Below are positions 25,587 through 26,291 of a stretch of DNA of 34,484 bases, piece by piece (the first letter of the stretch is position 1; each line of letters begins with the position of its first letter). This DNA is from Bacteroidetes/Chlorobi group bacterium MS-B_bin-24 (GTDB lineage: Bacteria > Bacteroidota > Ignavibacteria > Kapaibacteriales > UBA2268): NCBI GenBank assembly GCA_003731685.1, contig RCNO01000012.1:1-34484 (forward strand), given 5' to 3'. Under the pieces are notes generated by a model, which saw only the letters and a program-made list of their open reading frames with translations, did no database searches and was not told where the DNA came from. Both the position numbers and the translations under genes were made by a program.

Positions 25587-25653
25587 ACCTTGGTTATTAT
25601 TCAATGCAATCCATCCTTTAATAAACTTAAAAAGTTTTTCATAATTTCATCTT

Positions 25654-25684
25654 TTTTAGGGCAATTGATGAATTGTCCCTAAAA
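25654..25684. repeat. Palindrome 1 of copy A
   Basis: A 13-bp stem with one bulged T (25654-25666 with 25671-25684) closes a GATG loop. It is not followed by a T run on the plus strand, so it is a poor terminator for the SPFH gene. Confidence 0.75.
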
Positions 25685-25712
25685 TCAAAACATACCATCA
25701 TACCTTGTAAAC

Positions 25713-25745
25713 AGACATCGGATGTTTCGCAAGCATCCGATGTCT
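25713..25745. repeat. Hairpin 2 of copy A
   Basis: AGACATCGGATGTTT (25713-25727) pairs with 25731-25745 over 15 bp, with a single T-G wobble, around a CGC loop. It is followed by TTCAGC rather than a T tract. Confidence 0.85.
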
Positions 25746-25810
25746 TTCAGCAAAGAATCCCGTTAGGGTCAGAAAATAAAGTTTGCGATTATAACCAACA
25801 AAATTATTTA

Positions 25811-25951
25811 GGTAATTGCTCAATACAATCCACCTTATGTTCGAACTTTGAAAATTTACCATAATTTGTTCTATTGTATGGGGCAATTTTTAAACTGTAC
25901 CTAAAAAACTTTTTCAGACATCGAATGTTTCGCTAAAATCCGATGTCTTTG
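25811..25951 (+). repeat. REP-like two-hairpin element, copy B (degenerate)
   Basis: Copy B lies 219-222 bases after copy A and matches it at the start (GGTAATTGCTCAATACAATC), at ATAATTT (25861), at GGGCAATT (25881-25888), at TGTACCTAAAA (25896-25906) and at the terminal hairpin. About 19 bases present in copy A between palindrome 1 and hairpin 2 are missing. Palindrome 1 is decayed here. Confidence 0.7.
25916..25948. repeat. Hairpin 2 of copy B
   Basis: It has the same 33-base length and CGC centre as the hairpin in copy A, but three of the 15 stem pairs are mismatched (such as A924-C940, abbreviated from 25924 and 25940). The outer eight pairs are intact. Confidence 0.75.
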
Positions 25952-25998
25952 TTCTATGAATTTCTAAAGTCACGAACGAGTTCTTGCGGTCAGGCTTC

Positions 25999-26035
25999 CA
26001 AATAATTTTATCTTGAAGGGGCGAAAAATTATTTG
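25999..26035. repeat. Perfect 11-bp inverted repeat
   Basis: CAAATAATTTT at 25999-26009 is the exact reverse complement of AAAATTATTTG at 26025-26035, separated by 15 bases containing GAAGGGGCG. It lies 50 bases after repeat copy B. It could be a hairpin in RNA, an operator, or part of the same decayed element. Confidence 0.6.
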
Positions 26036-26291
26036 CCGCTACTTGGAATGAATTATGTAATCACCATTTTTATTTTCAAAGAATCATTAATTTCAGGAAT
26101 AAAACTTTCGATGAATAATTGGAGCCATTGTTATATTTAACAAGTTGGGTTTAATTTAGTACAAGTTTGTTAAAAATTTTCCATTCTGTATGAATTCTGA
26201 ATTCTCCACGAACTAGTTTTAAATTGCAAAATGACAACTTGGGTTATATCTCGGTGTTTTCGTATTTTTACATTTTTTGAAAAATGCGGAT

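Follow-up and report, generated by a model that had tools for sequence, protein, structure and literature searches.

A probable insertion in the Band-7/aminotransferase gap

The window analyzed here is a stretch of 34,484 nt in which the gap separating a Band-7 gene from an aminotransferase class III gene contains a unit of two head-to-tail, decayed, MITE-like copies, A and B, spanning positions 25592–26065 on the (+) strand. Its limits come from a scan for paired terminal inverted repeats (TIRs) and from the 50- to 75-bp gap that occupies this site in sister species. Copy A begins with a left TIR (25592–25615, [+] strand; GGTTATTATTCAATGCAATCCATC) carrying three mismatches to the TIR consensus GGTAATTNCTCAATNNAATCCACC. 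It continues with the palindrome Q (GGGCAATT; 25658–25680, [+] strand), recognized by its sequence, by a predicted fold of −9.4 kcal/mol and by the presence of the block in other elements, and with the 33-base hairpin H (25713–25745, [+] strand), which has a 15-bp stem and a CGC loop and is supported by its fold and by the genome copies described below. The copy A tail (25746–25810, [+] strand) is, in alignment with other elements, truncated ahead of the terminal GTAG-type palindrome. Copy B starts with a left TIR that matches the consensus without a mismatch (GGTAATTGCTCAATACAATCCACC; 25811–25834, [+] strand), followed by a degenerate Q block (GGGGCAATT; 25880–25902, [+] strand) placed by alignment, by its own H hairpin (25916–25948, [+] strand) and by a tail (TTTGTTCTATGAATTTC..GTCACGAACGAG..; 25949–26012, [+] strand) that aligns with, and has BLAST matches to, many elements.

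The first-pass annotation of this DNA had described two diverged copies (25592–25748 and 25811–25951) with the same order of blocks, and alignment bears this out: the local alignment score of copies A and B was 135.5, compared with 50.6 ± 7.1 (maximum, 86.5) in 1,000 dinucleotide shuffles, i.e., ~12 standard deviations above them, and it remained significant when the last hairpin was left out (86 versus a shuffle maximum of 59). The description of the copy B hairpin, kept at 33 bases despite three stem mismatches, was likewise accurate. The hairpin of copy A has a predicted RNA fold of −21.3 kcal/mol (z = −6.8), while that of copy B, with its broken stem, folds weakly (−9.1 kcal/mol). The proposed start block CAATnCAATCCA forms part of the left TIRs that start at 25592 and 25811. 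The end set at 25951 proved too narrow, since copy B runs on through its tail, a degenerate GTAG-type palindrome that had been missed (GAAGGGGCGAAAAATTATTTGCCGCTACTT; 26013–26043, [+] strand; consensus in other elements, GTAGGGGCGAATAATTATTCGCCCCTAC) and a right TIR (26042–26065, [−] strand). This right TIR has six mismatches to the consensus, a level that gave 14 control matches in 796 kb and is weak alone, and therefore its assignment rests also on its position and on left/right pairing elsewhere.

Copy A lacks a right end, leaving the unit with two left TIRs (at 25592 and 25811) and one right TIR. The tandem could have arisen either by insertion of copy B into copy A or by recombination. 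No fragment of a gene for a REP-associated (Y1) transposase (RAYT) was found in the two window copies. A further ~210 bp (26066–26277) separate the right TIR from the start of the aminotransferase gene; they exceed the entire gap of the sister species and match none of the family members found.

In three sister species (G001–G003), the gene order ADH, Band-7, aminotransferase class III and FGE-sulfatase-like is conserved, and the element is absent from the orthologous site: the Band-7/aminotransferase gap is a near-empty 50–75 bp there versus ~700 bp here. Insertion in the present lineage offers the simplest account of the difference. Because it separates two gene pairs that are 50–75 bp apart in the sisters, the insertion may change expression of the aminotransferase gene. 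A conserved RNA structure or coding sequence, in favor of which strong predicted folding could be cited, can be practically dismissed given this absence in all three sister species, the lack of an Rfam match in the window and the fact that no ORF of ≥80 aa covers the region.

Copy number, location and conservation of the H hairpin

The first-pass annotation had also proposed a dispersed repeat family, and a search with the hairpin found 187 copies of H (≤2 mismatches) in the organism's own 2.6-Mb genome. By comparison, none was found in the four same-genus genomes searched, 2 of 95 genomes of more distant relatives had one copy each, and a 395-genome sample of the phylum yielded H only in the present genome and, as a single copy, in genome G012. 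Given the many copies here and the absence or near-absence in relatives, the expansion of H is lineage specific among the sampled genomes. Viral contigs gave no exact H match, and no RAYT gene was present in the retrieved DNA of four contigs, from three other genomes, that match H exactly. The single H-type palindrome of G012 (L118, ~1501–1533; G012:C75:80346) apparently lies in frame within a C-terminal domain (..RKTSDVWQTSDVSTRIDISSLPSGIYY..), which we take to resemble a type IX secretion sorting signal. The H palindrome with other loop bases also occurs singly in L062–L065, on contigs labeled Sphingobacteriales, Chloroflexi and Bacteroidetes, the retrieved DNA of which contains no RAYT.

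Gene context was examined in 40 stretches totaling 796 kb (~31% of the genome), some of them picked on contigs known to carry hairpins, so that the density of H in this sample is biased as an estimate for the genome. With ORFs called by length alone, which makes these counts approximate, 109 of 115 H hairpins lay outside ORFs, and the other 6 fell in small, doubtful ORFs within arrays. Clusters of H were located between convergent genes in 22 of 63 cases, compared with 69 of 469 for all intergenic gaps, and the median intergenic gap was 447 bp with H versus 67 bp over all gaps. Arrays of several H hairpins, spaced by ~57 and ~90 bp, are found at G000:C7:50483–51077 and C43:13422–13942 and possibly reflect a second mode of amplification (H-57-H).

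As a short, extragenic palindrome with more than 100 copies, H resembles REPs. However, among the 61 copies inspected, none had a GTAG or CGTC tag beside the stem, one flank reading in most cases TTTTC or TTTCCC and the opposite flank TTTTG or a similar sequence, and without the tag H is not a GTAG REP. The term "REP-like" from the first-pass annotation consequently suits other palindromes of the element, which are of the GTAG type, but not the abundant hairpin itself. A role as DNA uptake sequence was rejected, as the 18-base arm (187 forward and 198 reverse matches, against 187 hairpins) is practically confined to paired arms.

Across 15 aligned elements, pairwise identity was 96% and 91% for the arms of H, compared with 75% for the TIR and 66–70% for other parts. 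Pairing within the stem reached 94.7% versus 92.0% in shuffles, with compensatory changes at pair 14 (17 from T-A to C-G) and pair 8 (five). Such conservation could stem from selection, from gene conversion or from H having re-spread on its own. If it is selection, H may be a cis element kept after its spread, for instance a transcript end, an mRNA stabilizer or a protein-binding dyad (ACATCSGATGT in each arm), an account of present function rather than of origin. The arm identity, the pairing with its compensatory changes and the excess between convergent genes all speak for such a role, but the stem of copy B is broken, a terminator scan was without a match at the window copies (by which an intrinsic terminator was rejected), and recent re-spreading or gene conversion fits the conservation equally well. 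We therefore regard a cis function as possible but doubtful.

Family architecture and the resident RAYT gene

A full-length family member is ~440 bp long and consists of a TIR, the GGGGCAATT palindrome, a GTAG-type REP, H, a spacer, a second GTAG-type REP and a TIR. Specifically, GGTAATTGCTCAATACAATCCACC and an A/T-rich stretch precede the GGGGCAATT palindrome, which is followed by a GTAG-type REP (GGGGCGAACACACAGGTTCGCCCCTAC), TTTTTC and H; next come the common tail, GTAGGGGCGAATAATTATTCGCCCCTAC, a short stretch, GTAGGGGCAGACCTATGTGTCTGCCCC and the 3′ end AAATTGAGTAATTACC. This order was read from alignments anchored at the left TIR, as a MAFFT alignment of all hairpin neighborhoods was too noisy in its 5′ part. 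Both ends are imperfect inverted repeats of ~24 bp, as in a MITE. The TIR motif had 29 matches (≤5 mismatches) in the 796-kb sample versus 0 for reversed or complemented motifs, and left and right TIRs paired eight times at seven places, the window unit (25592–26065) among them. By eye, no consistent target-site duplication was evident in the eight TIR pairs, the flanks of which are A/T rich. A GTAG tag beside the stem is carried by the palindromes labeled R, A and E, and GTAGGGGCGA..TCGCCCC has 31 and 25 matches on the two strands of the organism's own genome.

The first-pass annotation had suggested movement by a Y1 transposase, and profile searches of this genome detected a single RAYT gene, located at C73. 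It has an intact ORF, in which the HUH (HFH) and YY motifs are present in NHFHG and QRNYYEHI. The gene scored 23.1 bits against Pfam Y1_Tnp (cut-off, 23) and 60.8 bits against NF047646, below the curated NCBIfam cut-off of 80, where an in-frame REP insert splits the match. This insert (L158; L031) is an array of REP-like palindromes placed directly after the HUH motif (GADLCVCPENADLRVCP..GEHIGSPLH). In the sister species G002, a RAYT cluster (L156, 5813–8042; G002:C1, ~2651.8–2654.0 kb) has flanks and coding sequences filled with one REP-dimer unit.

The surroundings of the C73 gene share the architecture of the repeats. Upstream, a left TIR (five mismatches) is followed after ~41 bp by the GGGGCAATT palindrome and then by a GTAG-type REP, H, the common tail and REPs; the modules stand in the same order as in the repeats, and the distance from left TIR to Q is ~41 bp here and 42 bp there. 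On the downstream side, the gene is followed by a GTAG-type REP and by a right TIR that is weak (eight mismatches over 24 positions, two of which are N's), giving an element of ~1.19 kb with similar GTAG-type palindromes on either side of the gene. No matching TIRs were found at the RAYT loci of G001, G002, G006 and G009.

A fragment similar to the HUH-motif part of the RAYT gene is also present, beside a REP, in many family members; in L190, for example, the translation reads IMSYHFHAIIITIV versus IMPNHFHGIIIIV in the RAYT. Because such relics were weak by tblastn alone (best E-value, 3.8e-4), the position of the best alignment was tested instead. The segment ahead of the terminal REP had its best alignment on the RAYT codons immediately preceding the internal REP of the gene in 16 of 25 elements, which are related by descent and do not amount to 25 independent tests; the other 9 aligned best elsewhere, and individual P values ranged from 0.005 to 0.62. 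Together with the common left end and module order, these fragments support, but do not prove, that the repeats descend from the RAYT element by internal deletion. Since the unit has TIRs and resembles an internally deleted RAYT element, "MITE-like" is a better name for it than two-hairpin REP.

Origin of the family and known systems

On balance, we favor, with reasonable though far from full confidence, a lineage-specific insertion of a two-copy, decayed, MITE-like non-autonomous element, the members of its family being derived by internal deletion from a RAYT element bounded by TIRs. A larger element carrying the RAYT, an HUH Y1 transposase, between TIRs of the same kind would have undergone internal deletion and given rise to the non-autonomous family. 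RAYTs belong to the HUH enzymes and process single-stranded DNA that can fold. The resident enzyme would act in trans on single-stranded DNA, e.g., at replication forks; foldable palindromes, namely the GTAG-tagged REP modules and perhaps the TIRs and H, would serve as recognition structures, and the miniature copies would thereby have spread into intergenic DNA. By analogy with known RAYTs, the element is probably mobilized in trans by this enzyme, with the GTAG palindromes as its likely substrate. The weak points of this mechanism are the TIRs and the abundance of H without a GTAG tag. Further points against the favored reading are the weak right TIR at C73, the lack of a consistent target-site duplication, the NF047646 score below its cut-off, the window copies without a RAYT fragment, the H and REP modules that stand outside TIR-bounded copies and the RAYT loci of other genomes without matching TIRs. 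We know of no Y1 HUH enzyme that uses TIRs in the manner of DDE transposases. TIRs are unusual for Y1 enzymes, yet they have been described for TIRtrons (PMC3733652; discussed in PMC6006769).

More tentatively, the copies may be fossils of the birth of a REP or MITE family, in which deletion between two palindromes removed most of a RAYT coding sequence but spared the ends and hairpins, and the untagged internal H then became the preferred unit, re-spreading independently or under selection, in keeping with the identity of its arms in otherwise decayed copies. The idea that REPs and REPINs originate from RAYT elements becomes testable with this family, whose left end, internal palindromes and possible HUH-motif fragment have counterparts in a resident RAYT element. 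Related copies with a scrap of the probable parent transposase gene suggest how such repeats arise.

It is unlikely, in our view, that the family was moved by an unrelated, TIR-recognizing DDE transposase, with the RAYT gene and REPs as passengers inserted in one copy. TIRs of 24 bp and a size of 400–500 bp are the classic MITE layout, and insertion of a RAYT unit into a MITE would be possible given the many sequences that REPs enter. Yet all TIR matches with ≤4 mismatches in the 796 kb belong to H-bearing elements (one lies at a stretch end, where an element is placed), and a separate insertion sequence with these TIRs was thus not encountered in the ~31% of the genome sampled; moreover, many copies contain the RAYT-like fragment, and target-site duplications were not seen. 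Less probable still is a classical REP/BIME mosaic, in which GTAG REPs and H would accumulate in intergenic DNA as independent palindromes moved singly by the RAYT, without a larger unit. Such a mosaic would be in line with the wide spread of GTAG REPs, with the R-10-H and H-57-H arrays that exist alongside full elements and with the H and REP modules outside TIR-bounded copies, but many copies share ~400 bp of common order at 70–80% identity and common ends, which would not be expected from independent hits.

Compared with known systems, the unit, as preferred here, agrees with a MITE in its TIRs, small size, non-coding nature, many copies and apparent relation to a transposase-bearing element; what separates it from a MITE is that no target-site duplication was seen and that its partner is uncertain, the presumed one being an HUH Y1 enzyme rather than a DDE transposase. 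Mixed palindromes in an intergenic mosaic recall BIMEs, from which full-length copies differ by keeping one order and the same ends across ~400 bp. The family shares with GTAG REPs and REPINs (Bertels and Rainey 2011, PMC3116915; Nunvar et al. 2010, PMC2817692) a high copy number, intergenic location, palindromic structure and a RAYT in the genome. Its GTAG-type palindromes, found both as modules within the element and on either side of the RAYT gene, are like the REP superfamily in their tag, in their stem and in being associated with a RAYT; in contrast, the abundant H is untagged, and the unit is not a simple REP doublet such as a REPIN but spans ~440 bp with TIRs. Among systems described in the open-access literature, the closest is the TIRtron, or TIRYT, with its repeat family (Di Nocera et al. 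2013, PMC3733652), in which a RAYT-like gene is flanked by inverted repeats and end-related repeat families occur in the same genome. Unlike in that system, GTAG REPs and TIRs occur together here, the RAYT copy has a clear left but a weak right TIR, and the miniature copies are longer and composite, with internal palindromes and a seemingly retained fragment of the transposase gene.
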